From assembly GCA_019510095.1 (NCBI GenBank), contig JAEKLB010000057.1, forward strand, positions 1 to 33,013: a DNA stretch of 33,013 bases. Reading direction: 5' to 3'. The notes beneath the pieces are model-generated. The model had not been told where the DNA came from, did not search any database, and saw only the letters and a program-made list of their open reading frames with translations. The DNA comes from Acidobacteriota bacterium. Lineage in GTDB: Bacteria > Actinomycetota > Acidimicrobiia > Acidimicrobiales > CADCSY01. The first letter of the stretch is position 1; every line of letters begins with the position of its first letter. The position numbers and the translations under genes were made by a program. Shown here piece by piece: positions 4,111 to 32,405 of the stretch.

Positions 4111-5385
4111 TCAGGCGGGGACGCCGAGGAAGTTGGCCAGGTTGTCGCGCATGATGCGCTTCTGGTCCTCCTCGGAGAAGGTGGAGAGCTGGGCGCCGAC
4201 GTACTGCGCCGGGTAGGCAAGACCCTCGCCGTGGGGGAAGTCGGAGCCGAACACGATCGGGTCGATGCCGATCTCGGAGACCACCCGCTGCACGTTCTCC
4301 TCGGGGTACGGCGCCACGATGAACCGCTCCTTGAAGATCTCGCTGGGTCGCTGCTCGAGCTTCCCGAAGGTGCCCTTGCGCCCGAGCATGAAGGCGTGGT
4401 CCATCTTGCGGACGGTGTAGGGAACCCACACGGTGCCCATCTCCGACAGGCACACCTTCATGTTGGGGAACCGCCCGAAGAAGTTGTGCAGGATGAGCGA
4501 TGAGGTGAGGTCGATGGCCGGCTTGTCGCCCCAGGCCTGCATCCACTGCAACGCGGTGAAGTGCCCGAAGGTGTGCTCGGGGTCCTCCGACAGGTCGGCG
4601 CTGTACTTCTGGTAGTCGGTGGCGCCGAGGTGGGCGCACAGGCGCACGCCGGCCTCGTTGACCCGCGACCAGATCGGGTCGAAGACGGGGTCGGCCACCG
4701 AGCGACCGCCGAACGGGTTGTCACGGCCGCCATGGGCGTGACCCCCCTTGATCTGGATGATCGGCGCACCGGTCTCGATGAGGACCTCGATCTCCTTCAC
4801 CGCCAGGTCGACGTCGGCCAGGGCGATGTACGGCGGGAGGAACAGCCGGTTGTCGTGGGCGTAACCGATCTCCTCGTAGATCCACCGGTTGAACGCCCGG
4901 ATGTTGGCGTACATGGCGTCGACGTCGTCAGCGAACTCGAACTCGATGTCGTGCGCCGAGGCGGGGAACATGAGCGCCGCCTCGATGCCCTGCTCGTCCA
5001 TCAGCGCCAGCCGCAGGTCGCGGTTGCCATAGGCCTCGGACAAGTGGCGGAACTGCTCGATGACGGACTTGCGCTCCTCGGCCGACAGGCCCTTCAGCGG
5101 GTTGAGCCGGTTGAGCAGCTTGCCCGGCATCTTGAAGTTCTCTTCGTCCTTGTCGATCGCCAGGTTCCCGGCCTCGACCTGCTTGGCGATGATGTTCTCG
5201 CCGAAGCTCTCGACGGTGAACTTCGAGGGACGGCCGGCGAACAGCTGGAGCTGCTTGCCCTCGGCGGTCTCGACGAAGGTGATCGCCTTGTCCTTCTGGG
5301 CCGGGTCGATGTAGTCCTGGTAGAGCGTCGGCGGCTCGGTGAAGTGGTTGTCGGCGTCGAAGATCTTGTACGGCAGCTCGCTCAT
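4111..5385 (-). CDS. Amidohydrolase family 2 (PF04909-type) protein
   Basis: The protein has 424 residues and the amidohydrolase-2 TIM-barrel pattern: N-terminal DADNH (Asp10, Asp12, His14), a strand with LCAHLG holding a likely metal His, and a C-terminal FGSDFPHGEG with the metal Asp at 382. ACMSD-type members of the family have HxH at the first site; here it is DNH. Members are metal-dependent hydrolases or decarboxylases of ring or CoA-linked acids (known of the family). The start at ATG 5385 has GGGGGA five bases upstream. It is the last gene of a minus-strand operon, 42 bases after the thiolase-fold gene. It is clearly paralogous to the gene at 21734-23026. The substrate is unknown. Confidence 0.85.
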   Translation of the reverse strand: MSELPYKIFDADNHFTEPPTLYQDYIDPAQKDKAITFVETAEGKQLQLFAGRPSKFTVESFGENIIAKQVEAGNLAIDKDEENFKMPGKLLNRLNPLKGLSAEERKSVIEQFRHLSEAYGNRDLRLALMDEQGIEAALMFPASAHDIEFEFADDVDAMYANIRAFNRWIYEEIGYAHDNRLFLPPYIALADVDLAVKEIEVLIETGAPIIQIKGGHAHGGRDNPFGGRSVADPVFDPIWSRVNEAGVRLCAHLGATDYQKYSADLSEDPEHTFGHFTALQWMQAWGDKPAIDLTSSLILHNFFGRFPNMKVCLSEMGTVWVPYTVRKMDHAFMLGRKGTFGKLEQRPSEIFKERFIVAPYPEENVQRVVSEIGIDPIVFGSDFPHGEGLAYPAQYVGAQLSTFSEEDQKRIMRDNLANFLGVPA

Positions 5386-5427: not shown

Positions 5428-6615
5428 TCATTCGGTGCGCAGGACCGAGCCCTGGGCGTTGAAGAAGAAGCCCCCCATGGGGAGCAGGGCCTTGGTCGCC
5501 CCCGGCACCTGGCGCTCGCCGGCCAGGCCCTGGAGCTGGTGCACCGCTTCCCGGGTGTGCCCCGAGCCCTGGGTCCCGCCCTCGGACAGGGCGCCGCCAT
5601 GGGGATTCACCGGGATCCGGCCCTTGATCAGGATCCGGTTGGTCTCCTTGTCCCAGTTGTCCTCGATGAAGCCCCTGGCCTCACCGAGACCACACCAGCC
5701 GACGTTCTCGATCCAGCTCACGGTGATGAACGTGAAGCCGTCGTACGGGAAGAAGACGTCGATGTCGTCGATCCAGATGTCGCTCTTGGCCCTGAGCGAC
5801 TCCACCGTGACGTGCTGACCGTGATGGGTCAGGCTCGGTGTCTGGTCCTCTTCGTTCTGGGCGACCTGGCCGTTGGTGCAGGCATGGATCAGCACCGGCT
5901 TGAGCTTCATGTCGCGGGCCCGCTCGGTCGTGGTGATGATGAAGGCGTCGGCGCCATCGATGGGGACGTCCATGTCGAGCATCGACAGTGGCCACCGGAT
6001 CATGCGGGTGTTGAGGTAGTCCTCCATGGTCAGCGGCTCGCCGCGCATCACGGCTGCGGGGTTCCGCTGGGCGTTCGACCTGTCGTTGACGGCGATGTAG
6101 CCGAACAGGTCGCGTGACTCGTTGTACTCATGCAGGTAGCGGCTGGCCCATGCCGTGTAACCGACCGCCCCTCCGACGGTGTCCGGACCGAACCCGTCAC
6201 CCAACGCCTGGGCGTTGGGGTTCGACGCGAAGGCGCGGGCACGGAAGGGGTCGTTGGAAGCCGACCGTGAGTTCGACGCATTGCGGTAGATCGAGTGGTA
6301 CGCCAGCGCGACGTCGCACTGACCAGAGGCCACCGCACCGACGGCGTTGGCGATGCTGAACCCGAAGGGCACCCCCGCACCGACGTAGTAGTTGACCTCG
6401 GGGATGCCGAGCGCCGCCTGGATGTAGCCGTTGTTGGCGCCGATGAGCCCGTTGACCTCGCTCTTGTCGATGCCGGCGGCCTCGATGGCCTTGACACATG
6501 CGTCGAGCGCCAACGACGCCTGGGTGACCTCTCCCGCGCTGCGTGTGAAGCCGGTCGTGGCGGCCGAGGCAAAGGCAACCTGGTCCTTGTTGGGGTTCCG
6601 CTTGGCGATGCTCAT
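5428..6615 (-). CDS. Thiolase-fold protein lacking the nucleophilic Cys (SCP-x/Ltp2-like)
   Basis: With the ATG at 6615 it is 395 residues; this start has GGTGGAGG 8 bases upstream and lies 1 base after the stop of the Zn-ribbon gene. A GTG at 6630 is the alternative. The thiolase layout is visible: VGAVASGQCDVALAYHS (92-108), NVGWCGLGEARG in the C-terminal half, and PHGGALSEGG followed by GSGHTREAVHQL (338 onward). The segment where thiolases carry their nucleophilic Cys (about 80-92, GAGVPFGFSIANA) has none, and the usual GH of the C-terminal motif is GG (346-347). Known Cys-less relatives, such as Ltp2, act as retro-aldolases on acyl-CoA with a DUF35 partner. The neighbouring Zn-ribbon/OB gene makes this role the best guess (inference). 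Confidence 0.83.
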   Translation of the reverse strand: MSIAKRNPNKDQVAFASAATTGFTRSAGEVTQASLALDACVKAIEAAGIDKSEVNGLIGANNGYIQAALGIPEVNYYVGAGVPFGFSIANAVGAVASGQCDVALAYHSIYRNASNSRSASNDPFRARAFASNPNAQALGDGFGPDTVGGAVGYTAWASRYLHEYNESRDLFGYIAVNDRSNAQRNPAAVMRGEPLTMEDYLNTRMIRWPLSMLDMDVPIDGADAFIITTTERARDMKLKPVLIHACTNGQVAQNEEDQTPSLTHHGQHVTVESLRAKSDIWIDDIDVFFPYDGFTFITVSWIENVGWCGLGEARGFIEDNWDKETNRILIKGRIPVNPHGGALSEGGTQGSGHTREAVHQLQGLAGERQVPGATKALLPMGGFFFNAQGSVLRTE

Positions 6616-6616
6616 C

Positions 6617-7081
6617 TCAGCGACCTCCACCGTCGTTTGCCAACCGCCACACCGGATAGGGCTTTCCGTTGCGCTCGATCCAGTCGAGCTCGACCCGCTT
6701 GCCGATCTCGAGGTCGTCGTTGTCGGCGCCGACGACCGTGCTGGTGAACCGCAGACCTTCCTGCTCGTCGAGCTCGACCGTCGCCACCGGATGCGGCGTC
6801 GAGTAGTCGACGCCCTCGGCAGGCGGACCCTGGTGCAGCAGGATCAGCAGATGAATGGTGCCGGTGCCGGCGACCGGTGTCGCCACCAGGTTCTTCGACC
6901 AGCAGTTGGGGCAGATCGGCTTCGGGCGGTGGTGCCACCAGCCGCAGTCGCTACAGCGGCTGAGCCGTAGCTCCTTGTGCAGCAGGCCCCGGTAGAGGTG
7001 CTTGTTGATGTGGTCGAGCCGGACGTTGTCGAACCGCTCGAGCAGCTCCGCGTCGCTCTCTTCGGTGCTGGTTGCCGCCAT
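6617..7081 (-). CDS. Zn-ribbon / OB-fold (DUF35) protein
   Basis: The protein has 154 residues. An N-terminal helix leads into a rubredoxin-like zinc ribbon with Cys43, Cys46, Cys57 and Cys60 (CSDC, then CPNC), followed by an OB-fold domain from about residue 65 to 150 with PHPVATVELDEQEGLRF. This is the DUF35 architecture. Such proteins form complexes with thiolase-fold enzymes (acetyl-CoA acetyltransferases, or Ltp2-ChsH2 aldolases) and help acyl-CoA binding (known of the family). The gene sits directly upstream of, and nearly touches, the thiolase-fold gene, so the two probably form one complex. A GGGGGAT ribosome binding site precedes ATG 7081. Confidence 0.88.
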   Translation of the reverse strand: MAATSTEESDAELLERFDNVRLDHINKHLYRGLLHKELRLSRCSDCGWWHHRPKPICPNCWSKNLVATPVAGTGTIHLLILLHQGPPAEGVDYSTPHPVATVELDEQEGLRFTSTVVGADNDDLEIGKRVELDWIERNGKPYPVWRLANDGGGR

Positions 7082-7121: not shown

Positions 7122-7691
7122 CTACGCCGACGCCATGCGCCGGTCGCCGGGAGCCGGCCACCGCGAGCGAAGCAAGGGGATCACCAGCACGGCAACCAAC
7201 GTCATCCACGCCTTGCCGATGATCTGGCCCTGCCAGAAGGCGAGCGAGTGGAACGCGATCTGGAGGAACACCACGGTGTCGACCACCAGTCCCACGCTGT
7301 TGGACAGCAGGACCGCGGCGACCACCCGGCCGCGGTCGACCAGCGGCGTGTAGACCGCGAAGTCGAGCGCCTCCGAGATGAGGAAGGCCACCGCCGACGC
7401 CCACGCCAACGAGGGCGCCACGGCGTAGGAGAGGACCGCTCCGAGCAGGATCGCGCCCACTGTCGCCCACCGGCCGAGGGTCGACTGCACGACGTCGCGC
7501 ACGGTGAACGCCAGGCCCACCCAGAGCACACCCGAGGGTGCCCGGTAGCCGAAGCCGACGGGGATGGTGTGCGGTCCTCCGGGGAACGTCTGGCTGCCGA
7601 TGTGCTGCACGAACCAGTTGGCGGCGACCACCGTCCCCACGTAGAGGACGAGAGCCGGCAGCCCGATCTGCACTCGCGAACGGTCACCCAC
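7122..7691 (-). CDS. VUT-family queuosine-precursor transporter (YhhQ-like)
   Basis: The protein has 189 residues with about six hydrophobic helices and the VUT/YhhQ signatures: TVVAANWFVQHIG near the N-terminus, GVLWVGLAFTVRDVVQSTLGR (about 54-74), an EALDFAVYTPL segment with acidic residues in a membrane helix, and SNSVGLVVDTVVF. The family imports preQ0/preQ1 or related deazapurines (known of the family). The start is GTG 7691, which overlaps the 3' end of queF by 8 bases, so the two are translationally coupled and this context strongly supports the substrate. No other queuosine genes are visible in the window. Confidence 0.82.
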   Translation of the reverse strand: MGDRSRVQIGLPALVLYVGTVVAANWFVQHIGSQTFPGGPHTIPVGFGYRAPSGVLWVGLAFTVRDVVQSTLGRWATVGAILLGAVLSYAVAPSLAWASAVAFLISEALDFAVYTPLVDRGRVVAAVLLSNSVGLVVDTVVFLQIAFHSLAFWQGQIIGKAWMTLVAVLVIPLLRSRWPAPGDRRMASA

Positions 7692-8049
7692 GGGGCGGCG
7701 GGCTGCCTCGCTCGGCGGTGCACTCGGTCACGATGCCGCCCCGGACGTGCTGGGTGACGATCACCCGGAGGCCGGACGCACCGGTGGCACGGGCGACCTC
7801 GTCGGCGATCTCCACGGCGAGTGCCTCGGCGAAGACCCCCCGGTCGCGGAACGACCACAGATACCGCTTCAAGGACTTCGACTCGATGCACTGGCCAGCG
7901 GGCACGTAATCGATCTCCAGCGACGAGATGTCGGGCTGGCCCGTCATGGGGCACACCGACGACAGCTCGTCGGTGGTGAACCGCACCCGCGTGCAGCCGC
8001 GAGGTGCATCGAAGGTCTCGAGGTGATCGAGCGGGCCGCGGTCGTCCAT
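7684..8049 (-). CDS. queF: NADPH-dependent 7-cyano-7-deazaguanine reductase QueF (type I)
   Basis: The protein has 121 residues from ATG 8049 (a TTG at 8052 is just upstream). It carries the type I QueF (YkvM) signatures: catalytic Cys33 in SVCPMTGQPD, Asp40 of the same motif as proton donor, and the QueF NADPH motif ESKSLKRYL beginning at Glu56. It reduces preQ0 to preQ1 with two NADPH in the queuosine tRNA-modification pathway, in the cytoplasm. The C-terminus is shorter than in Bacillus QueF. It is the first gene of an overlapping pair with a VUT-family transporter, so preQ0 uptake plus reduction is a likely unit. The DinB-like gene ends 22 bases upstream. Confidence 0.92.
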   Translation of the reverse strand: MDDRGPLDHLETFDAPRGCTRVRFTTDELSSVCPMTGQPDISSLEIDYVPAGQCIESKSLKRYLWSFRDRGVFAEALAVEIADEVARATGASGLRVIVTQHVRGGIVTECTAERGSPPPRG

Positions 8050-8074
8050 CAAGCCGGGCAGCGTAGAGGTCGCG

Positions 8075-9747: not shown

Positions 9748-10218
9748 CTAGCCGAGCATGGGCGGGGGTGGCGGGGTGTAGCCGGGTGGGCCGAGGTCAC
9801 CGATGAGCCAGCCTTCGACCTGGTCCATCCGCACCCGTACGTAGCCGCCCTCATCGGGCACTGGGCCCACGGCGGTGACCACCCGGGCGTTGCGGAGGTG
9901 GAGGTGGAACGGCCGGAGGTCGGCGGCGTCGCCTTCCTTCTCGGTCTTGGCGCCGCCGGTGCCGCGGATCTCCAGCTCCGATTCCGAGGGGAACCAGCTG
10001 CGGCCGATGGTCTTGAAGAAGGTCTGGATGCTCTGGGCTCCGTCGCCCGCCGCCTCGAGGACGTACTCGCCCAGCTCCTCGGTGAACATCCGGGGCGGGA
10101 TGAGGGTGCCCGACAGCCAGGTACCGCCGACCAGGACGCTGACCCCGAGCTGCACGCCGGCCCCGTTCATCACGTCGACGAATGCCTGCAGCATGGGATC
10201 GACCGTGCGCTCGGTCAC
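9748..10218 (-). CDS. GvpU-like gas-vesicle accessory family protein
   Basis: The protein has 156 residues from GTG 10218. The N-terminal half (LQAFVDVMNGAGVQLGVSV, then a GGTWLSGTLIPP strand) and the segment LHLRNARVV followed by VRMDQVEGWLIGDLG match the pattern I remember for GvpU of Bacillus megaterium: an N-terminal helix, a beta strand ending in GTLI, and a C-terminal beta region. A variable acidic/Lys-rich part lies between (about 85-100). The C-terminus is a short Pro tail (TPPPPPMLG). No other gas-vesicle gene (gvpA, F, G, K, N and so on) is present in the window, so a role in gas vesicles is doubtful. A TACGTT box lies 21 bases upstream. It converges on the HNH remnant. Confidence 0.62.
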   Translation of the reverse strand: MTERTVDPMLQAFVDVMNGAGVQLGVSVLVGGTWLSGTLIPPRMFTEELGEYVLEAAGDGAQSIQTFFKTIGRSWFPSESELEIRGTGGAKTEKEGDAADLRPFHLHLRNARVVTAVGPVPDEGGYVRVRMDQVEGWLIGDLGPPGYTPPPPPMLG

Positions 10219-10274
10219 CGATCGTCACCCACCTGCCAGAACGTAGGCGATGGATCGACCAGGATCGGGGGGCC

Positions 10275-12047
10275 GTGCACCTGCGCTATCCGCCCCAGCT
10301 ACCGATCACCGACCGCAAGGACGAGATCGTGGCCGCCATCGACGACCACCAGGTCGTGGTGCTCGCTGGCGAGACCGGCTCGGGCAAGAGCACCCAGCTG
10401 CCGAAGATGTGCCTGGAGCTCGGGTTGGGCGACGAGGGGCTCATCGGCCACACCCAGCCCCGTCGGCTGGCCGCCCGCACGGTGGCCGAGCGGGTCGCCG
10501 AGGAGCTCGGCACCACCGTCGGCGAGCTCGTTGGTTATACGGTCAGGTTCACCGATCGGGTCGGGGAGCAGACGTTGGTGAAGGTGATGACCGACGGGAT
10601 CCTGCTGACCGAGATCCAACGTGACCCGCTCCTGCGCCGCTACTCGACCCTGATCGTCGACGAGGCCCACGAGCGCAGCCTCAACATCGACTTCATCCTC
10701 GGCTACCTCAAGCAGCTGCTCCCCCGTCGGCCCGACCTGAAGCTGGTCATCACGTCGGCGACCATCGACACGGCGCGCTTCGCCGCCCACTTCGGCGACG
10801 CCCCGGTGATCGAGGTGTCCGGCCGCACCTATCCGGTCGAGGTTCGCTACCGCCCGCTGGTCGACCCCGACCAGTCGCTAGAGCGCGATCAGACCGAAGC
10901 CGTGTGCGAGGCGGTGGAAGAGCTCCGCGCCGAGGGCCCCGGCGACGTGCTGGTCTTCCTGAGCGGCGAGCGGGAGATCCACGACACGGCCGACGCACTC
11001 CGAGCGCTCGATCTGCCGGGCACCGAGCTGCTGCCGCTCTATGCCCGGCTGTCGGCAGCTGAGCAGCACCGCGTGTTCCAGCCTCATGCTGGCCGACGGA
11101 TCGTGCTGGCCACCAACGTGGCCGAGACGTCGCTCACCGTTCCCGGCATCAGGTACGTGGTCGATGCCGGAACCGCCCGGGTGTCGAGGTACAACCGCCG
11201 AACCAAGGTGCAACGCCTCCCCATCGAGCCGGTGTCCCAAGCCGCCGCCAACCAGCGGGCCGGTCGGTGCGGGCGGGTGGCACCGGGGATCTGCATCCGG
11301 CTCTACGCCGAGGACGACTTCGAGGCCCGGCCACCCTTCACCGAGCCGGAGATCCTCCGGACCAACCTCGCCTCGGTGATCCTCCAGATGGAGTCACTCG
11401 GGCTCGGTGAGGTCGCCGAGTTCCCCTTCCTCGATCCGCCCGATGCCCGCAGCGTCAAGGACGGCGTCACGTTGCTCGAGGAGCTCGGCGCGCTGGCACC
11501 GGGGGAACAGTCCGGCCGCCGGCTCACCCGGCTCGGCCGCAGGCTGGCGCAGCTGCCGGTTGATCCCCGGCTCGGGCGCATGGTGCTCGAAGCCGACCGC
11601 CACGGGTGCGTGCGCGAGGTGCTGGTGATCGCGGCTGCCTTGTCGATCCAGGATCCCCGCGAGCGGCCGCCGGGCAAGCAGCAGGTCGCCGATCAACACC
11701 ACGCCCGCTTCACCGACCCCGACTCCGACTTCCTCTCACTGCTCAACCTGTGGCACCACCTGCGCGAGCGCCAGCGGGAGCTGTCGTCGAACCAGTTCCG
11801 GCGGCTGTGCCGGGACGAGTTCCTCAACCACCTCCGGATACGGGAGTGGATGGACATCTACAGCCAGCTCCGCCAGGTCGCAGGCGGTCTCGGTGTGCGC
11901 CTGGGAACCCCGAGCTGGTGGAGACCAACCGCCTCTGGGCACGCACCGTGGCCCGCATCCAGCCGGAGTGGGTCGAGCGTGCCGGCTCGCACCTGGTCCA
12001 GCGCACCTACAGCGAGCCGACATGGGACGCCGGGCGCGGCGCGGTGA
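10275..12047 (+). CDS. hrpA: HrpA-type DEAH RNA helicase, N-terminal fragment (frame broken)
   Basis: This frame encodes the helicase core: Walker A GETGSGKS (32-39 from GTG 10275), DEAH (129-132), SAT (161-163), the second RecA domain with FLSGEREI and QRAGRCGR, then the winged-helix and ratchet region up to REWMDIYSQLRQVAGGLG. It is very close to E. coli HrpA in order and motif. At about 11905 the HrpA-like sequence stops; the frame then reads nonsense to 12047. The GTG start is the best one close to the homologous region; relative to E. coli the N-terminus is about 70 residues shorter. The continuation is in another frame at 11906-13768. HrpA is an ATP-dependent 3'-5' RNA helicase involved in ribosome rescue (known of the family). 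Confidence 0.85.
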   Translation: MHLRYPPQLPITDRKDEIVAAIDDHQVVVLAGETGSGKSTQLPKMCLELGLGDEGLIGHTQPRRLAARTVAERVAEELGTTVGELVGYTVRFTDRVGEQTLVKVMTDGILLTEIQRDPLLRRYSTLIVDEAHERSLNIDFILGYLKQLLPRRPDLKLVITSATIDTARFAAHFGDAPVIEVSGRTYPVEVRYRPLVDPDQSLERDQTEAVCEAVEELRAEGPGDVLVFLSGEREIHDTADALRALDLPGTELLPLYARLSAAEQHRVFQPHAGRRIVLATNVAETSLTVPGIRYVVDAGTARVSRYNRRTKVQRLPIEPVSQAAANQRAGRCGRVAPGICIRLYAEDDFEARPPFTEPEILRTNLASVILQMESLGLGEVAEFPFLDPPDARSVKDGVTLLEELGALAPGEQSGRRLTRLGRRLAQLPVDPRLGRMVLEADRHGCVREVLVIAAALSIQDPRERPPGKQQVADQHHARFTDPDSDFLSLLNLWHHLRERQRELSSNQFRRLCRDEFLNHLRIREWMDIYSQLRQVAGGLGVRLGTPSWWRPTASGHAPWPASSRSGSSVPARTWSSAPTASRHGTPGAAR

Positions 12048-13768
12048 TGGCCATCGAGCGGGTGACGCTGTACGGGCTGCCGATCGTCGCCGGGCGCCGG
12101 GTCGACTACGGACGGGTCGACCCGGCCCTCGCGCGTGAGCTGTTCATACGCCACGCCCTCGTGGACGGCGATTGGGAGACCCACCATCGCTTCTTCCACG
12201 ACAACGCCGCGTTGATCGACGACGTGCTCGCCCTCGAGGCACGGGCCCGCCGGCGCGACATCCTCGTCGACGACGACGTGCTGTTCGACTTCTACGACCA
12301 GCGCCTCCCGAGCGACGTGCGGTCGGCGCGCCACTTCGACCGGTGGTGGAAGAAGGCCAGCGCGGGTGAGCCGGGAATGCTCGACTTCACCCTCGAGCTG
12401 CTGACCGGCGACGACCGCGGTCAGCTGGATCCTCACGACTTCCCCGACGCCTGGCGCCAGCGAGATCTGCTGCTGCCGATCACCTACGAGCTCGACCCGG
12501 CATCGGCGATCGACGGTGTCACCGTGCACGTCCCGCTGGCCGTGCTCAACCGGGTGCAGCCCACCGGCTTCGACTGGCTGGTGCCGGGACGGCGGGCCGA
12601 GCTGGTGGCCGCCCTCATCCGCTCGCTGCCCAAGCAGGTCCGCCGCCACGTGACGCCGGCCGCCGAGCACGCCGCCTCCTTCCTCGAGCTCACCTCGCCC
12701 GCCGACGGCCCCCTCCTCGAGGTGCTCGCCCGCCATCTCGCCCGGCGGGCGGGCATCGAGGTCATGGCCGACGACTTCGACATCACGCGCCTGCCGCCAC
12801 ATCTCGTCGTCACCTTCCAGGTGGACGACGATGCCGGCGAGCCCCTCGCCATGGGCAAGGACCTCGTCTCGCTCCAGCACCAGCTGTCACCGCAGGTGAA
12901 GGCCGCCATCAGCGAGGCGGCCGGCGGCCTGGAGCGGACCGGCCTGGCTCAGTGGGAGGTCGGTGACCTGCCGAGCGTCGTCGAGGTCGAGCGCTCGGGC
13001 CAGACCGTCCGCGGCTACCCGGCCCTGGTCGACGAGGGCCAGACGGTGGGGCTGCGGGTCCTGTCGACCCGGGCCGAGCAGCGGGTGGCCCACTGGGGCG
13101 GCACCCGCCGACTCCTTCGACTGGCGGTCCCGACGTCGACCAAGGCCCTCTCCCGCCAGCTCGGGCGGGACTCGACACTGGCGCTGACCTACGCACCCCA
13201 CGACAGCACACGGGCGCTGATCGACGACTGCACGACCAGCGCGCTCAACAGCCTCATGGCCCGCCACGGCGGGTTGGTGTGGGACGAGGCTGGCTTCGAC
13301 GAGCTGCGGGCTCAGGTGCAGACCGAGCTCCCCGGCACGCTCCTCGAGATCGTCGAGACCGTGGCGCGGCTCCTCCATGCCGCCCGTCGCATCGAGCAAC
13401 GAGTCGACGAGCTGGCATCGCCCGGCCTGCTCGACGCCCTGACCGACGCCCGGGTCCAGCTCGCCCGGCTCGTCTACCCCGGCTTCGTCGCCGCCAGCGG
13501 CGCCGACCGCCTCCGTCACCTCGAGCGCTACCTGCGAGCCATCGAGCGCCGCCTCGATGCCCTGCCCACCAACCCGGCGCGTGACGCCGACCGCATGCGC
13601 CGGATCCAACAGCTGTGGTCGCGCTACCAGGCAGTGGCCCGCACCCGCTCCGGCCCGGAGATCCGGTGGATGATCGAGGAGCTGCGGGTCAGCCTGTTCG
13701 CCCAGTCGCTGGGTACCGCGCACCCGGTGAGCGAGAAGCGCATCCTCGACGCCATCGCCGCCGCCTGA
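11906..13768 (+). CDS. hrpA: HrpA-type RNA helicase, C-terminal fragment (frame broken)
   Basis: In frame 2 the HrpA sequence resumes at ELVETNRLWAR and runs to the natural end ILDAIAAA. It includes the TLYGLPIVAGRRVDYG and RELFIRHALVDGDWETHH blocks, the DILVDDDVLFDFYDQR block, and the HrpA-specific C-terminal domain (DUF3418) ending in EIRWMIEELRVSLFAQSLGT. There is no start codon or ribosome binding site at the junction, so this is the rest of one gene rather than a separate one. Between the two parts about 60 residues of the family (including the GLLSHIG and FPGS blocks) are missing. Together the visible parts give about 1160 codons against about 1300 in E. coli HrpA. Confidence 0.82.
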   Translation, partial: NPELVETNRLWARTVARIQPEWVERAGSHLVQRTYSEPTWDAGRGAVMAIERVTLYGLPIVAGRRVDYGRVDPALARELFIRHALVDGDWETHHRFFHDNAALIDDVLALEARARRRDILVDDDVLFDFYDQRLPSDVRSARHFDRWWKKASAGEPGMLDFTLELLTGDDRGQLDPHDFPDAWRQRDLLLPITYELDPASAIDGVTVHVPLAVLNRVQPTGFDWLVPGRRAELVAALIRSLPKQVRRHVTPAAEHAASFLELTSPADGPLLEVLARHLARRAGIEVMADDFDITRLPPHLVVTFQVDDDAGEPLAMGKDLVSLQHQLSPQVKAAISEAAGGLERTGLAQWEVGDLPSVVEVERSGQTVRGYPALVDEGQTVGLRVLSTRAEQRVAHWGGTRRLLRLAVPTSTKALSRQLGRDSTLALTYAPHDSTRALIDDCTTSALNSLMARHGGLVWDEAGFDELRAQVQTELPGTLLEIVETVARLLHAARRIEQRVDELASPGLLDALTDARVQLARLVYPGFVAASGADRLRHLERYLRAIERRLDALPTNPARDADRMRRIQQLWSRYQAVARTRSGPEIRWMIEELRVSLFAQSLGTAHPVSEKRILDAIAAA

Positions 13769-21645: not shown

Positions 21646-21690
21646 AACGACGTTCTCGCGCCCGCCCGGCGTCGGGATCAGGTTGCCTCC

Positions 21691-21705
21691 TACAGTCGTG
21701 ACGAC
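21691..21705 (+). promoter_or_regulatory. Candidate promoter/operator upstream of amidohydrolase
   Basis: TACAGT (21691-21696) fits the TAnnnT -10 consensus and would give a leader of about 30 bases that contains the GGAGGG ribosome binding site. A small inverted repeat GTCGT-G-ACGAC (21695-21705) overlaps the likely start of transcription and could be an operator half-site pair for the upstream TetR protein. The evidence is weak. Confidence 0.25.
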
Positions 21706-21733
21706 CGGTGCAGCCGGAAATGGAGGGCACGCG

Positions 21734-23026
21734 ATGGCGACGACCGAGACTGGCGAGCGGGGCATCTACGTCTCCGACAAGGAAGCGAAGCTCCCGTACC
21801 GCGTCTACGACGCTGACAACCACATCTACGCGCCGGACGACGCGCGGATCAGGCACCTGCCGAAGAAGTACCACGACCAGCTCCAGGCGGCAGCGGGGAG
21901 GATCACCCCCGAGGTCGAGGGTGACGACGACGTCGAGCACGTGGCAACCACGATCGGCACCCACCCCGTGCCCGAGGGCGGGCATGGCGGTGTCGACCTC
22001 AAGGAGCTGCCGGGCATGAGGGGCAACATCCCCATCCCCGGGGCCATGCTCAACCGGCTGAACCCCATGCGCGACCTCGACCAGCTGAGCCGCATCGACC
22101 TGATCGAGCGCTACAACGAGATGCGCCCCGCCTTCGAGAAGAACGGGCCCCGGCTGCAGCTCATGGACGTGCAGGGCGTCGAGGCCGCGGTGGTCTTCAC
22201 CGGCGGCTTCAACAACGAGGCGGGGTTCAAGGGCGGCGTCGAGCTGGGCGCCGCGTGCACGCGCGCCTGGAACGAGTACATCCTCGAGGACTGGGGCTTC
22301 AACACCGACGACCGCATCTACTGCCCGCTGATGGTGCCGTTCGACGACGTCGACACCGCCATCAAGGAGCTGGAGTGGGGCATCGACCACGGCGCCAAGT
22401 TCATCAACCTCCCGGTCGAGCCCACCTCACAAGGCCTGTCGCCGTTCGATCCCAAGTTCGACCCGATCTGGGCCCGGGTCAGCGAGGCCGACCTCCGCGT
22501 CGCCACCCACCTGCACGGCCGGGCCCGCCACGAGGGCATGGCCGGGTGGGGCGAGGACCCGACGACGCCGTATCCGCGCTACGACGCGTTCCAGTGGACG
22601 ATGTGGTGGAGCGACCGGCCGGTCATGGAGATGACGGCGGCCATGATCTTCCACGACCTCTTCGGCCGGTTCCCCAAGGTGAAGGTGCTCATCGCCGAGT
22701 ACGGCAGCGTGTGGCTCCCGTACCTGCTCCGGAAGATGGACCACGCCCACATGCTCGGCCGGAAGGGCACGTTCACCAAGCTCACCGAGCGGCCGTCGCA
22801 GACCTTCAAGGAGCACGTCGTGGTGGCGCCGTACCCGGAGGAGAACATCGCCCGGGTCGCCGAGGTCACCGGTTGGGACTGCCTGGTCTTCGGCTCTGAC
22901 TTCCCGCACTCCGAGGGCCTGCCCGATCCGGTGCAGTACGTCAGCCAGCTCGGGAAGCTCGACGACGGCATCATCCGCAAGGTGATGCGTGACAACCTGC
23001 ACGACTTCATCCACGGATCTGCTTGA
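21734..23026 (+). CDS. Amidohydrolase family 2 (PF04909-type) protein, second copy
   Basis: From ATG 21734, with GGAGGG 6 bases upstream, it has 430 residues; the open frame starts earlier at 21683, but those codons lack a binding site. The family pattern is N-terminal DADNH (Asp26, Asp28, His30), VATHLHGRA, and C-terminal FGSDFPHSEG with the metal Asp at 389. It is clearly paralogous to the gene at 4111-5385: the blocks LNRLNP, RKMDHA-MLGRKGTF, VAPYPEEN and FGSDFPH occur in the same order. As there, the family's usual first HxH is DNH. The gene is followed 32 bases later by an SDR, so the pair likely acts on one pathway. The reaction (ring or C-C bond hydrolysis, or decarboxylation) is inferred only at family level. 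Confidence 0.86.
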   Translation: MATTETGERGIYVSDKEAKLPYRVYDADNHIYAPDDARIRHLPKKYHDQLQAAAGRITPEVEGDDDVEHVATTIGTHPVPEGGHGGVDLKELPGMRGNIPIPGAMLNRLNPMRDLDQLSRIDLIERYNEMRPAFEKNGPRLQLMDVQGVEAAVVFTGGFNNEAGFKGGVELGAACTRAWNEYILEDWGFNTDDRIYCPLMVPFDDVDTAIKELEWGIDHGAKFINLPVEPTSQGLSPFDPKFDPIWARVSEADLRVATHLHGRARHEGMAGWGEDPTTPYPRYDAFQWTMWWSDRPVMEMTAAMIFHDLFGRFPKVKVLIAEYGSVWLPYLLRKMDHAHMLGRKGTFTKLTERPSQTFKEHVVVAPYPEENIARVAEVTGWDCLVFGSDFPHSEGLPDPVQYVSQLGKLDDGIIRKVMRDNLHDFIHGSA

Positions 23027-24672: not shown

Positions 24673-25764
24673 ATGGCCAAGATCTGGGCGAACTCCGGCG
24701 ATTCCCACCTCCTCGAGCCCGAGGATCTCTGGTACCAGGTGCTCCCCAAGCGGCTGGCCGACAGGACGCCTCGCACCGTCACCGAGGGCAACGAGCAGAT
24801 CACCTACATCGGCGACCAGGTGATGACCCGCACCATCCCGAGTCCCCGCCGCCAGCAGTGGAACGAGCTGTTCCGCCCGCCCGGCGCGCTCAAGACCGAG
24901 ACCCGGCTGAAGGATCTCGACGAGCAGGGCGTGTTCGGCGAGATCTGCTTCCCGTCGGCGGGCTTCTTCACGTCGAACGTCGAGGACCCGGAGATGGCGC
25001 GCGAGATGTCGCGGGGCTGGAACGACTGGGCCAAGGCCGACGTGATCGACGCGTCCAAGGGACGGCTGTTCCCCAGCGCCATCGTGTCGGTCTACGACAC
25101 CGGCGACGCCGTGGCCGAGCTCCAACGGGCGGCCGGCATGGGGTTCAAGCTGATCTACATGCCGACCACGCCACCAGCCGACCGCCAGTACAACGACGAG
25201 GTGTGGGCGCCGCTGTGGGACGCCGCCGACGAAGCCGGCATCGTGCCCGCCTTCCACATCGGCACCGGCCTCAACCCGGTGCAGTTCCGAGGCGCTGGCG
25301 GTGCGGTCATCAACTATGTGGAGACCGCCCTACCCGGCATCCGGACGCTCACCATGTTGGTCGCCAGCGGCGTGCTCGACCAGCATCCCGACCTCAACGT
25401 GCTGGTCGCCGAGGGCGGTGGGTCGTGGATCCCCGCCATGGCCGACCGCATGACCGAGGCCTACCGGCAGCACTCGCTCTTCGTCCGTCCCACGCTCTCC
25501 AAGCTGCCGAAGGAGATCGTGTACCGCCAGGTGTACACGTCGTTCCAGCACGACGAGAGCGCGATCCCGACCGTGATGCACCTCGGCTACGAGAACATGC
25601 TGTGGGGTAGCGACTACCCCCACGTCGAGGGCACGTTCCCGGAGACGCAGAAGGTGCTGCACGAGCTGTTCGACGACGTCCCCGAGGCCACTCGTCGACT
25701 GATCACCATCGACGCCTTCAACCGCCTGCTCGGCGTCGACTTCGAGCCGCCCGCCGGCGACTGA
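24673..25764 (+). CDS. Amidohydrolase family 2 protein, third copy (divergent)
   Basis: The protein has 363 residues, shorter than the other two copies. The first metal motif is GDSHLLEP (Asp10, His12); a central PAFHIGTG provides a likely metal His; and the C-terminal motif is WGSDYPHVEG (Asp314). The block CFPSAGFF and the ordering of strands fit PF04909. It has fewer shared blocks with the copies at 4111 and 21734 than they share with each other. Hydrolysis or decarboxylation of a ring or acyl compound is the family-level expectation. It is divergent from the ArsC-like gene and converges on the acyl-CoA ligase gene with a 17-base gap. Confidence 0.85.
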   Translation: MAKIWANSGDSHLLEPEDLWYQVLPKRLADRTPRTVTEGNEQITYIGDQVMTRTIPSPRRQQWNELFRPPGALKTETRLKDLDEQGVFGEICFPSAGFFTSNVEDPEMAREMSRGWNDWAKADVIDASKGRLFPSAIVSVYDTGDAVAELQRAAGMGFKLIYMPTTPPADRQYNDEVWAPLWDAADEAGIVPAFHIGTGLNPVQFRGAGGAVINYVETALPGIRTLTMLVASGVLDQHPDLNVLVAEGGGSWIPAMADRMTEAYRQHSLFVRPTLSKLPKEIVYRQVYTSFQHDESAIPTVMHLGYENMLWGSDYPHVEGTFPETQKVLHELFDDVPEATRRLITIDAFNRLLGVDFEPPAGD

Positions 25765-29252: not shown

Positions 29253-30061
29253 CTGGCGAGCACCAGGTGGCGCAGCTGCGTCCAGTGGCGGAAGTTGCCA
29301 GCGACGACGGTGGCGGCGCCGGCCGGCGTGGCCACGTGCTCGAGGGGCGACGCATGGGCCGGCTGGGCGGTGACGAACCGCTCGTAGAGCCGGAGATCGT
29401 CGTCGAGGTCGCGCTGCCCGTCATGGTTGAGGTACGAGACCCGACCGCAGCGGGCTGCCGAGACCTTGCGGAGGAGCGCCGGATCCGCAATCGCGGCTCG
29501 GTCCTCGCCGTCGACATAGGGAAGGTGCCACTCCCCTGGCTCGCAGCTCCTCGGTGCCGACTGCTGCATGGCGGCGCGCATGGCCTCTGCCGCGAGACGG
29601 ATCTCGGGCTGGGCGAGCGGCGAGCACCGTTGGAACCAGAAGCCGTCCCAGTCGGTGGCGCTGACGATCACGGTGTGCCACATGAACGGCTCCAACAGCC
29701 GGTTGGCGACCTGCTTGTGCACGCCGAGATCGAGCAACCGCTGGGCGCCGGCGACGGCATCGTCGCGGGCACGGAGCCAGGCGCCCTCGGCGGCGACCCG
29801 GGCGTTGCCCTCCAACGCCGGCCCGGCCTGCATCCCGCCGCGCTTGCCGCCGAACTCGACGGGGATGGCCGGGTCGGCCATGACCCGGGCGATCTGCTTG
29901 GCCACCGGCACTGCCCTGCTCGAGGCGCTGTTGCGACTGAAGAGCCGGTGCGTGTTCAGCTCGGCGAGCACGAACCGGTGGATCGTGGCCTCGATCGTGG
30001 TCAGCCGGACGCCGTCGGAACTGACCGAGTCGGCGATCACCCGGGCGGCCGGTCCAGTCAT
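29249..30061 (-). CDS. thyX: ThyX-like FAD-dependent thymidylate synthase family protein
   Basis: The protein has 270 residues from ATG 30061. The ThyX signature RHRxxSxNxxSxR is present as [13 protein letters not shown] (37-49), with Thr in place of the first Arg. The C-terminal block HASPLEH (236-242) and [10 protein letters not shown] are further ThyX-type features. ThyX makes dTMP from dUMP with methylene-tetrahydrofolate, NADPH and FAD (known of the family). The same variant signature occurs in phage and actinobacterial ThyX-like proteins, so full activity is likely but not certain. CAGACT 6 bases before the ATG suggests a leaderless start. It diverges from the molybdopterin oxidoreductase. 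Confidence 0.78.
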
Positions 30062-30067
30062 GGATGC

Positions 30068-30073
30068 AGTCTG
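30068..30073 (-). promoter_or_regulatory. Candidate -10 box (CAGACT) for leaderless thyX-like gene
   Basis: CAGACT on the minus strand ends 6 bases before ATG 30061, the same box and gap as at the LLM oxidoreductase (2261-2266). Confidence 0.35.
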
Positions 30074-30121
30074 CGCGCGGCCGACCTCCGCAGCGGCGGA
30101 CCCCTTCCCACCAGCGACGAC

Positions 30122-30138
30122 GACACCATGGCGGTGTC
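30122..30138. promoter_or_regulatory. Inverted repeat in divergent spacer (possible operator)
   Basis: GACACC and GGTGTC arms flank a 5-base centre in the thyX / molybdopterin-oxidoreductase spacer. The arms are perfect but short, and no regulator gene lies next to it. Confidence 0.2.
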
Positions 30139-30164
30139 CCCGGTCGCCCACCACCCGGGTTCAG

Positions 30165-30170
30165 TACCGT
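30165..30170 (+). promoter_or_regulatory. Candidate -10 box (TACCGT) for leaderless molybdopterin oxidoreductase
   Basis: TACCGT ends 6 bases before ATG 30177 with no Shine-Dalgarno in between, which settles the start within an open frame that reaches far upstream. Confidence 0.5.
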
Positions 30171-30176
30171 TTGCCC

Positions 30177-32405
30177 ATGAGCTCCCGGGCGACGTCGCCG
30201 AGGCCCCGCCGGTGCCATCTGTGCGAGGCGGCCTGCGGCCTCGACATCGAGTTCGAGGGCGACCGACCGGTGGGGGCCCGCGGCCGTCGCACCGCGGTGC
30301 TCAGCGCCGGCTACGTGTGCGCCAAGGGCTCCGCCCTGCTTGACATCGACGCCGACCCTGACCGACTGCGGCGCCCCCTCGTGCGGCGGGACGGCGAGCT
30401 GGTCGAGGTGTCGTGGGAGGAGGCGTTCGCCGAGGCCGCTGCCCGGCTCCGGCCGGTCATCGAGGAGCACGGGCGCCACACGGTGGCGGTCTACAGCGGC
30501 AACCCGGGCGGCTCGACGGAGCTCTTCTTCAAGGCCGCGCTGATCCACGCCCTGTCGACGCCTCACATCTACAGCGCGGCCTCGGTCGACGCCTCCTCGA
30601 AGGCCTTCGCCTCCGGGCTGCTGTTCGGCGTGCCGTGGTCGACAGCTGTCCCCGACCTCGACAACACGGACCACCTGCTCATCGTCGGCGCCAACCCGGT
30701 CGACTCGAACGGCAGCCTCCTCACCGCTCCCAACATGGCAGCCCGGCTGCGCGCCATTCGCGCTAGCGGCGGCAAGGTGGTCGTGCTCGATCCCCGGCGC
30801 ACGCGCACTGCCGAGCAAGCCGACGAGCACCACTTCATCCGGCCCGGCACCGACGCCCTCGCCCTGTTCGCCATGGTCCACACCCTCTTCGAGGAGGGTC
30901 TGGTCGACCTGCGCCATCTCGACGGAAGGGTCGAGGGCGTCGCCGAGCTCGGGGCGCTGGCATCGCCCTTCACTCCCGAGGCCGTGGCCGACCGCTGCGG
31001 CATCCCAGCACCCACGCTGCGGCGCCTCGCCCGTGACCTGGCGGCGGCCCCCAGCGCCGCGGTCTACGGACGGGTCGGTACCTCGACCCAGGCGTTCGGG
31101 ATGCTCGCCAGCTTCCTCATCGACGCCCTCAACGTGCTGACCGGCAACCTCGACCGGCGAGGTGGGGCGATGTTCCCGCTTCCGGCCCAGGGCAGCCCGA
31201 CCACCCATGGCAAGCCGGGACCCGGCCGGGGCATGCGGTGGGGACGGTGGCAGAGCCGGGTGCGCGGGCTCAAGGAGTTCGCCGGGGAGCTGCCCGTGGC
31301 GGCGTTGGCCGAGGAGATCGACACGCCCGGCGACGATCGGGTGCGGGCCGCCATCTTCATCGCCGGCAACCCGGTGCTCTCGACGCCGAACGGAGGGCGG
31401 CTCGATGCCGCCCTGCCGATGCTCGACTGCCAGATCAGCATCGACATCTACCTCAACGAGACCTCACGGCACGCGCACGTCGTGTTCCCCTCGCCGCGGC
31501 TGCTCACCCGCGGGCACGCGCAGGGCTTCGCCACCTGGAACGCCTGCCAGAACTTCTACGACTACTCCCCGCCCCTGCTGGCACGCGAGCCAGGCGAGCT
31601 GGGCGACGGCGAGATCCTCATGCGACTGACGGCCATCGTCGAGGGCCGCGACCCCAATGCCGAGGATGTCGACGACCGCATGGCAGCGTTCGTGGCCCAA
31701 CGGGCCGCGGCCGCCGCCCAGCAGTTCGGCATCACCGCCGACGACGTGCTCGCGTCGCTGGATGCCGGCGAGCCGGCCGAGCAGCTCGTCGAGCTCAACA
31801 TCCGCTCCGGCCCGTACGGCGATCGGTTCGGGCAATGGCCCGAGGGTCTGACGTTCCGGCAGCTGCGGGAGGCGCCCGACGGGGTCGATCTCGGCCCGTT
31901 GCAACCTCGCGTCGACGAGATCCTGCGCACGGCGAGCGGGAAGATCGAGCTGGCGCCAGAACCGGTCGCCATCGACAGCACCCGCCTCGCCGCCGCGCTT
32001 GCCGAGCCCGTTCCCGGCCTGCTGCTCTTCGGTCGCCGCGACCGCCGCTCGATGAACTCCTGGCTGCACAACGTCGGGCGGCTCACGACCGAGAGTGACC
32101 GCTGCACCGTGCAGCTTCACCCGCTCGACGCGGCCGAGGCCGGCGTCGTCTCGGGGCAGGCCGTCGTCGTCACCAGCCGGGTCGGCAGCGTCACCGCCCC
32201 GGTCGAGGTGACCGATGCGGTGATGCCGGGCTCGGTGTGCGTGCCGCACGGCTTCGGGCACGGCAAGGCCGCCGACAGCCTGCGGGTCGCGGCCCTCACC
32301 CCCGGCGCCAGCGCCAACGACCTCACCGACGACGGCGTCGTCGAGCCGTGGTCGAGCGTGGCCGTCTTCAGCGGCGTGCCGGTTCAGGTGGCCCCGGCGA
32401 CCTGA
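30177..32405 (+). CDS. Molybdopterin-dependent oxidoreductase (DMSO-reductase family)
   Basis: The protein has 742 residues from ATG 30177. The N-terminus binds a [4Fe-4S] cluster through Cys13, Cys16, Cys20 and Cys48, followed by Lys50, the usual electron-relay Lys. The Mo-bis-MGD domains follow: VYSGNPGGS (106-113), LLIVGANPVDSNGS (167-180), RPGTDALALFAMVHTL, VYGRVGTSTQAFG, and the C-terminal dinucleotide domain with LFGRRDRRSMNSWLHN and VTDAVMPGSVCVPHGFGHG. Where formate dehydrogenases have Cys/Sec, the sequence reads SASVDASSKAF, with Asp138 the likely Mo ligand. There is no twin-Arg signal, so the enzyme is cytoplasmic. No partner subunit is encoded nearby; the substrate is unknown. Its 3' end overlaps the convergent DUF480 gene by 22 bases. 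Confidence 0.87.
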   Translation: MSSRATSPRPRRCHLCEAACGLDIEFEGDRPVGARGRRTAVLSAGYVCAKGSALLDIDADPDRLRRPLVRRDGELVEVSWEEAFAEAAARLRPVIEEHGRHTVAVYSGNPGGSTELFFKAALIHALSTPHIYSAASVDASSKAFASGLLFGVPWSTAVPDLDNTDHLLIVGANPVDSNGSLLTAPNMAARLRAIRASGGKVVVLDPRRTRTAEQADEHHFIRPGTDALALFAMVHTLFEEGLVDLRHLDGRVEGVAELGALASPFTPEAVADRCGIPAPTLRRLARDLAAAPSAAVYGRVGTSTQAFGMLASFLIDALNVLTGNLDRRGGAMFPLPAQGSPTTHGKPGPGRGMRWGRWQSRVRGLKEFAGELPVAALAEEIDTPGDDRVRAAIFIAGNPVLSTPNGGRLDAALPMLDCQISIDIYLNETSRHAHVVFPSPRLLTRGHAQGFATWNACQNFYDYSPPLLAREPGELGDGEILMRLTAIVEGRDPNAEDVDDRMAAFVAQRAAAAAQQFGITADDVLASLDAGEPAEQLVELNIRSGPYGDRFGQWPEGLTFRQLREAPDGVDLGPLQPRVDEILRTASGKIELAPEPVAIDSTRLAAALAEPVPGLLLFGRRDRRSMNSWLHNVGRLTTESDRCTVQLHPLDAAEAGVVSGQAVVVTSRVGSVTAPVEVTDAVMPGSVCVPHGFGHGKAADSLRVAALTPGASANDLTDDGVVEPWSSVAVFSGVPVQVAPAT

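Follow-up and report, generated by a model that had tools for sequence, protein, structure and literature searches.

The window considered here is a 33,013-nucleotide stretch (contig JAEKLB010000057.1, positions 1 to 33,013, forward strand) of assembly GCA_019510095.1, named as an Acidobacteriota bacterium and placed by GTDB in the Acidimicrobiales (CADCSY01), whose minus strand encodes, in this order, a DUF35 protein, a thiolase-fold protein without the nucleophilic cysteine, and an Amidohydro_2 protein (Table 1). Taking residue patterns, predicted folds and analogy with characterized enzymes together, we tentatively favour, as somewhat short of probable, the reading that the first two proteins form a retro-aldolase acting on a beta-hydroxyacyl-coenzyme A (CoA) after beta-hydroxylation by the neighbouring third protein, a putative oxygenase. 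The data on which this reading stands are gene content, residue patterns, the clade, the predicted folds and the recurrent linkage of the genes. The thiolase-fold protein belongs to a class recognizable by a YDGF motif, next to which genes of the oxygenase type recur; this class may carry out the chemistry of the steroid aldolases Ltp2 and Sal with a third kind of active site. An earlier reading made from the DNA letters (the sequence-only reading) had proposed a possible retro-aldolase of the Ltp2 type, linked to an amidohydrolase.

Affinities of the Thiolase-Fold Protein

Among solved structures, the best sequence match of the thiolase-fold protein is Ltp2 (6ok1, E 2e-38), and that of the DUF35 protein is the DUF35 part of ChsH2 in the same entry (6ok1_B, E 3e-16). 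In a 77-row tree, proteins of the window class make up a single clade (support 100/100) that joins a class with the pattern YDGF...GR (100/99) and then the Ltp2 group (97/91), which is itself weakly supported (86/83) and leaves the window protein outside. The window protein does not fall among active Cys-containing thiolases, two rows of which, with the motif HDCF, lie outside the window class and the Ltp2 group. The thiolase-fold protein is thus a member of the Ltp2/Sal steroid-aldolase clan, nearest to the Ltp2 group and in a clade of its own.

The AlphaFold model of the protein (predicted local distance difference test, pLDDT, 88.6) is likewise closest to Ltp2 (6ok1, Z 47.7, root-mean-square deviation (rmsd) 2.5, 365 residues), followed by Sal (9myr, Z 44.7, rmsd 3.0, 366 residues) and 4u4e (Z 44.0), with SCP2 thiolases at Z of about 38–41 and classical thiolases at about 32. 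Among these matches of a predicted fold Ltp2 alone leads clearly, and such a match speaks for kinship, not activity.

The relatives counted below came from a scan of genome contigs, from which the best 80 of 88 were kept (46–68% identical over the best segment); their hosts are Actinomycetota and Myxococcota/Deltaproteobacteria, with three loci from Pseudomonadota. Residues were compared in an 88-row alignment of the window protein, 80 contig loci and seven others, from which the partial match L040 (267 bits) was left out; since the alignment contains contigs reached by two routes (L037/L082, L038/L111 and L039/L113) and one near-identical pair (L061/L112), its number of independent rows is smaller. 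A second alignment, with 166 rows from the wider clan, omits matches shorter than 300 residues, with X or with identical cores, and for the clan trees rows more than 66% identical to a retained row were also left out, the 77-row tree being the careful one.

Active-Site Residues and Known Relatives

Residues 76–95 of the window protein contain no Cys, and the same is true in 85 of the 88 aligned rows, the window included (one row is gapped there); at 346–347 stands Gly-Gly, where three HDCF thiolase rows of the clan alignment have Gly-His. On both points the sequence-only reading was right, and since there is no Cys nucleophile the usual thiolytic mechanism is impossible. An active Cys thiolase of the SCP2 type is ruled out by the absence of both features and by the separation from the HDCF rows.

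In Ltp2, Tyr294 is described as the base, His296 as part of the oxyanion hole and Tyr344 as the acid, and in Sal the catalytic residues given are Tyr302 and Cys304 (PMC12329534). Tyr291 of the window protein aligns with the base of both, whereas the place of Ltp2 His296 and Sal Cys304 is taken by Gly293, which is invariant (88/88), and that of Tyr344 by Gly or Ala in every row (at position 347, Ala in 51 and Gly in 37). The acid can therefore be neither Tyr344 nor Cys304. Other residues are nearly as well conserved among the 88 rows, namely His339 (84), Glu345 (82), His353 (82), Asp122 (84) and Arg125 (87). The clan alignment as a whole divides into several motif classes: HDCF with GH (thiolase), YDHF with EAY (Ltp2), YDCY (Sal), YDSF, YDAF, YENF, QDTD/E and others.

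With Gly or Gly/Ala at the places of the Ltp2 His and Tyr344 and of the Sal Cys, and with a clade of its own, the protein is no orthologue of Ltp2, and a strict Sal orthologue is ruled out on the same grounds. The assignment to the "Ltp2 type" accordingly holds in the broad sense, as membership of the DUF35-partnered, Cys-less clan of Ltp2 and Sal that is separate from the HDCF rows, and fails in the strict sense: Gly replaces His296 and Tyr344, the protein is outside the Ltp2 clade, and its DUF35 partner has no MaoC part. The companion suggestion of a related but distinct C-C cleavage module remains plausible.

Four known systems bear comparison. Ltp2-ChsH2 (6ok1) shares the fold, the Cys-less nucleophile loop, the DUF35 partner and the base Tyr of YDxF (31% identity over 350 columns), but the window system has YDGF instead of YDHF, Gly347 instead of Tyr344, a stand-alone DUF35 protein without MaoC, and a separate clade. 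The Sal-Shy bile acid aldolase (9myr; 26% identity) agrees in fold, Tyr base, DUF35 partner and lack of a nucleophilic Cys; unlike it, the window protein has neither Cys304 nor Gln352, and the window DUF35 protein carries a C4 zinc ribbon instead of the C3H1 type. The thiolase-like protein 4u4e of Sphaerobacter thermophilus, a "putative thiolase" by its title, shares the fold and 32% identity, but belongs to the YDSF class and has another C-terminal motif. Finally, Atf1-ChsH4 of Mycolicibacterium neoaurum also pairs a thiolase-fold aldolase with a stand-alone DUF35 protein, and both are reported as key genes in vivo; Atf1 is Sal-like, being 56% identical to Sal1 according to the same paper, and it is by that paper's description that it is set apart here (PMC10398937).

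The genome to which the window belongs holds a second gene of the window class (L034, 7144-8319(-)), 56% identical to the first, with a DUF35 gene upstream and with homoserine dehydrogenase and threonine synthase genes nearby; no amidohydrolase was found in the 11.5 kb stretch around it.

The DUF35 Partner

The four-Cys zinc-ribbon/OB protein described by the sequence-only reading, directly upstream at a distance of one base, is borne out by coordinates, spacing, Pfam domains (Table 1) and the C4 pattern: a single base separates the DUF35 stop from the ATG of the thiolase-fold gene, which is preceded by GGAGG, and the ribbon is of the form CxxC-x10-CxxC, not the Cys3His1 zinc finger of the Sal type. 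Of the 80 relatives, 78 have a same-strand DUF35 gene no more than 2 kb upstream, and in 77 the start of that gene is at most 700 bases away; the two without one are a match at a contig edge (L096) and a partial match (L099). The CxxC...CxxC pattern is present in the DUF35 proteins of 71 of 77 relatives.

Recurrent Linkage to Amidohydrolases

The linkage seen in the window would not by itself carry the argument, and it is recurrence in other loci that does most of the work. An Amidohydro_2 gene occurs within 6.5 kb in 42 of the 80 relatives; 20 have one adjacent on the same strand with a gap below 450 bp (14 upstream, 6 downstream), four are divergent, and in L047 the genes overlap. Such counts treat the relatives as separate although they are kin, and the statistics ignore this kinship. 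Among the labels tried, Amidohydro_2 is the commonest neighbour after DUF35 and well above genome density: seven host genomes (32.6 Mb) contain 241 PF04909 matches, or 3.4 to 16.7 per Mb, which leads to an expectation per 14 kb of about 0.1 on average and 0.23 in the richest; the window's own genome has 25 in 2.95 Mb. The exact three-gene order is not kept; what recurs are several arrangements with amidohydrolases of different subfamilies, in L031-like, PtmU3-like and DitZ-like lineages and in a mostly myxococcal group. One host that possesses such a trio is Rhodococcus sp. BH4, in which the locus is on a plasmid.

As a control, the flanks (2.9 kb) of other clan members were compared. An amidohydrolase lies near 33 of 66 window-class genes; for the other clan genes the count is 9 of 39, and three of these nine loci also hold a window-class pair. 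On the same strand within 600 bp the counts are 19/66 and 5/39. The profile used was derived from window-class neighbours, which favours that class in this comparison. The amidohydrolase link is strongest for the window class and not confined to it.

The Third Gene as a Putative Dinuclear Oxygenase

By alignment, the Amidohydro_2 protein has all six dinuclear ligands (D12, H14, H252, E315, D382 and H385), together with E387, an acidic residue two past the last His that aligns with Glu313 of PtmU3. The ligands of AibH2 and the acidic residue of binuclear members are described in PMC7782822, LynB7 has the same ligands (PMC10127204), and the amidohydrolase-related oxygenase group is defined in PMC10811679 and PMC10401708. 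These six positions are among the ten invariant columns of a 37-row amidohydrolase alignment, and all 47 neighbouring amidohydrolases have them, 38 with Asp or Glu at the seventh place.

The model of the protein (pLDDT 81.9) is nearest to 4dzi (Z 42.3). The structural ranks 2–13 are taken by PtmU3 (6omp, 35.4), DitZ (32.7, here a presumed oxygenase) and entries of SfbO, TruffO and AibH1H2 (29.7–31.7, some AibH1H2 chains possibly being mononuclear AibH1), and ACMSD decarboxylases follow at 29.2 and below, so that the lowest oxygenase rows tie with ACMSD. PtmU3, a non-heme diiron monooxygenase that hydroxylates C-5 of diterpenoid-CoA intermediates (PMC10127204), agrees in ligand set and fold (26% identity, rmsd 3.0, 350 aligned), but is of a different subfamily, and the thiolase-like gene beside it belongs to another class (YDPN). 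From ligands and predicted fold, a dinuclear oxygenase like PtmU3 is a better reading of the third gene, which the sequence-only reading had called an amidohydrolase, than a hydrolase; a plain hydrolase is disfavoured by the ligand set and kept as a rival.

Four close paralogues of the window amidohydrolase in its own genome (on contigs C99, C1, C53 and C132, the nearest 70% identical) look like a lineage-specific expansion. As to electron supply, a pterin donor was considered and dropped, since in none of the 80 relatives was a gene within 6.5 kb labelled as FolE. L033, L198 and L203 do hold FolE and oxygenase-type genes together in stretches of 19–25 kb, L203 also with a pterin carbinolamine dehydratase, which might hint at such a donor.

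PtmU3-Type Loci and Other Precedents

One locus with a 99% match to PtmU3 (281 residues), which we take to be a platensimycin-type cluster from that identity alone, carries on one strand within about 4.3 kb PtmU3, an AMP-binding protein, a Cys-less thiolase-like protein (YDPN) and a DUF35 protein. At a threshold of 1e-75, PtmU3 relatives occur in 20 of 392 genomes; in 12 of these 20 the surrounding stretches were examined, and 11 contain a thiolase-like/DUF35 pair. The thiolase-like motif in these eleven is QDTD in eight, YDHF with EAY in one (L226), YDGF plus HDCF in one (L225) and YDPN in one. L226 has its oxygenase-type gene directly against this thiolase-like gene, which shows the complete Ltp2 pattern and is followed by DUF35. 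The eight QDTD loci (L216-L222 and L224, from Streptomyces genomes) bring together a PtmU3 relative, the thiolase-like gene, DUF35, a short-chain dehydrogenase/reductase (SDR), an acyl-CoA dehydrogenase and PaaI, and their class has no Tyr base.

In Massilia putida, a DitZ-like gene is followed by a gene of the YDGF...GR class. In the usual numbering, C-5 of dehydroabietic acid is beta to the carboxyl group. Pseudomonas abietaniphila makes 5-hydroxy-dehydroabietic acid by an enzyme that the authors state to be unknown and suspect to be a P450, and it requires ditF (sterol carrier-like) for growth (PMC13063091); that a PtmU3-type oxygenase acts in this 5-hydroxylation is speculation. DitZ (8uyr) was dropped as a member of the Pseudomonas dit cluster, because its PDB title gives Rhodococcus rhodochrous and the link is in the name only. 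A search for DitZ relatives at 1e-60 in 369 genomes from the class to which Hydrocarboniphaga effusa belongs returned none and, having no positive control, shows nothing. No paper joining dinuclear oxygenases with thiolase-fold aldolases was found by title or start of abstract among the open-licence articles of PMC.

Proposed Reaction and Its Alternatives

In the reaction that we tentatively favour, the thiolase-fold and DUF35 proteins would constitute one hetero-oligomeric enzyme, as suggested by their linkage and by the Ltp2-ChsH2 and Sal-Shy precedents. The PtmU3-like dinuclear metal monooxygenase would hydroxylate the beta-carbon of an acyl-CoA with O2, after which Tyr291, judged by its alignment with the bases of Ltp2 and Sal, would remove the proton of the beta-hydroxyl, and a retro-aldol cut by the pair would release a ketone or an aldehyde and leave a shorter acyl-CoA. 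Because the Tyr is retained and the other Ltp2/Sal places hold Gly or Gly/Ala, we infer the retro-aldol role; candidates for protonating the enolate are His339, Glu345, His353, the D122-P-x-R125 motif or water. The route would be useful where beta-oxidation is blocked, for instance by a quaternary alpha-carbon.

Several observations weigh against this reading. The general acid of Ltp2 and Sal and the oxyanion His of Ltp2 are absent, so the chemistry may differ; the complex, the activity, the substrate and the order of steps are themselves inferred. In eight of the eleven PtmU3-type loci with a pair, QDTD stands in place of YDxF. Other clan members have nearby amidohydrolases too (the 9/39 above), the seventh acidic residue is missing in 9 of the 47 neighbours, and among 52 amidohydrolase open reading frames (ORFs) in the 80 loci not one has the window oxygenase's lineage as its best query. 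The four paralogues mentioned above are on contigs without thiolase-clan matches (two at contig ends). Oxygenase-type ligands are, moreover, common in the genome (10 of 12 complete PF04909 ORFs outside the window, in a check of profile-found ORFs that missed the PF04909 stretches L178, L179 and L183 and left out three more, with three ORFs cut by contig ends and L188 lacking its start), so that the ligand set indicates a type of enzyme and not by itself a special partnership. Further points on this side are given with the alternatives to which they lend weight.

The pair could be a retro-aldolase next to an unrelated amidohydrolase, the beta-hydroxyl being supplied by an ordinary enoyl-CoA hydratase encoded elsewhere, as in steroid pathways. 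Amidohydrolases are lacking within 6.5 kb in 38 of the 80 relatives, and the nearest relative (L045, 65%) has none labelled in its 13.9 kb. Of the 80 relatives, 19 have enoyl-CoA hydratase genes nearby and 33 acyl-CoA dehydrogenase genes, and for M. neoaurum activity of Atf1, together with a free-standing DUF35 protein, on 22-OH-BNC-CoA is reported (PMC10398937). Against an unrelated neighbour stand the rank of Amidohydro_2 as commonest label after DUF35, well above genome density, and its recurrent same-strand adjacency, and we consider this explanation unlikely, though to be taken seriously.

A small chance is left to an amidohydrolase that belongs with the pair and performs no oxygen chemistry. 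It would then resemble the mononuclear PF04909 enzymes and work as a hydratase, hydrolase or decarboxylase, either ahead of the aldolase or following it. Outside the oxygenases, the characterized PF04909 enzymes are described as non-redox enzymes whose metal site is mononuclear or absent (PMC10811679, PMC10401708); the 40 window ORFs scanned for domains yielded no electron donor, Rieske or other, and no reductase; 4dzi, the closest structure, comes from structural genomics, and its title names no function; and the tie between the lowest oxygenase rows and ACMSD points the same way. However, the protein has the complete dinuclear ligand set with an acidic residue at the place of PtmU3 Glu313, and PtmU3 itself stands clear of ACMSD.

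The third alternative, to which we give a slim chance, is that the pair makes bonds or carries out other CoA chemistry in a remodelled site, such as Claisen-type acylation, as PhlABC does, or a water-driven retro-Claisen reaction. PhlABC and other DUF35-type acyltransferases share the fold, as does the DUF35-linked acetoacetyl-CoA thiolase 6et9 (together Z about 40–43), the last nearly equalling Sal as a match of the model (Z 43.4), and the missing Ltp2 acid and oxyanion residues would fit as well. Yet there is no Cys to carry an acyl group, the PhlABC entries score below Ltp2 and Sal, and many loci contain genes of acyl-CoA breakdown.

Should beta-hydroxylation followed by retro-aldol cleavage prove correct, the consequences would reach beyond this window. 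In the papers compared, thiolase-fold aldolases cut steroid side chains in two catalytically different ways, and a third class, spread over Actinomycetota, Myxococcota and three Pseudomonadota loci, would show the tolerance of the thiolase fold. The linkage would suggest substrates for a largely uncharacterized family of dinuclear oxygenases, provide a role for the Cys-less thiolase-like gene next to PtmU3, and open a testable route to the 5-hydroxylated resin acids of PMC13063091. Broader still, and in our view doubtful, is a general, unrecognized route for acyl-CoAs beyond beta-oxidation, in which PtmU3-like beta-hydroxylation would be followed by DUF35/thiolase-fold retro-aldol lyases, including a third class (YDGF...G[G/A]) without the Ltp2/Sal acid; it would cover platensimycin-type ring opening and possibly resin-acid breakdown.

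Layout of the Locus and Other Genes in the Window

Table 1. Coordinates of the trio, its motifs and other features of the window.
Feature	Position	Strand	Remarks
DUF35 gene	6617-7081	minus	154 aa; stand-alone zinc ribbon and OB fold; Pfam zf-ChsH2 and OB_ChsH2_C
C4 zinc ribbon CSDCGWWHHRPKPICPNC	6902-6955	minus	C-x2-C-x10-C-x2-C from residue 43
Thiolase-fold gene	5428-6615	minus	395 aa from ATG 6615; Pfam Thiolase_C_1; YDGF...SEGG class; proposed retro-aldolase subunit
Codons Y291-D-G-F294	5734-5745	minus	Y, G and F in 88/88 aligned rows
Codons Gly346-Gly347	5575-5580	minus	347 is the position of thiolase His and Ltp2 Tyr344
Amidohydro_2 gene	4111-5385	minus	424 aa; Pfam Amidohydro_2; full ligand set of amidohydrolase-related dinuclear oxygenases
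SDFPHGE motif	4225-4245	minus	Ligands D382 and H385, plus E387; meaning as described in PMC7782822 and PMC10127204
Second oxygenase-type Amidohydro_2 gene	24673-25764	plus	57% identical to PtmU3
Third oxygenase-type Amidohydro_2 gene	21683-23026	plus	42% identical to the 4111-5385 protein; SDR gene next
QueF and queuosine-precursor transporter genes	7122-8052	minus	Immediately upstream of DUF35
Helicase_C/HA2 and DUF3418 frames	10182-12047 and 11606-13768	plus	Overlapping frames
Luciferase-like flavin monooxygenase gene	1220-2587	minus	
Molybdopterin oxidoreductase gene	29568-32405	plus	

All three ORFs of the trio show third-position GC of the coding type, and the Amidohydro_2 start lies 42 bases past the stop of the thiolase-fold gene, for which GTG at 6630 is an alternative start. 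The operon could also take in the QueF and queuosine-precursor transporter genes on the same strand. The second oxygenase-type gene possibly serves the same metabolism as the trio, though its position gives no link.

Elsewhere in the window, the Helicase_C/HA2 and DUF3418 domains, presumably parts of one HrpA-type helicase, are split over two overlapping frames, as if one gene had been frameshifted, be it in reality or by an assembly error. A luciferase-like flavin monooxygenase and a molybdopterin oxidoreductase are encoded there as well (Table 1).

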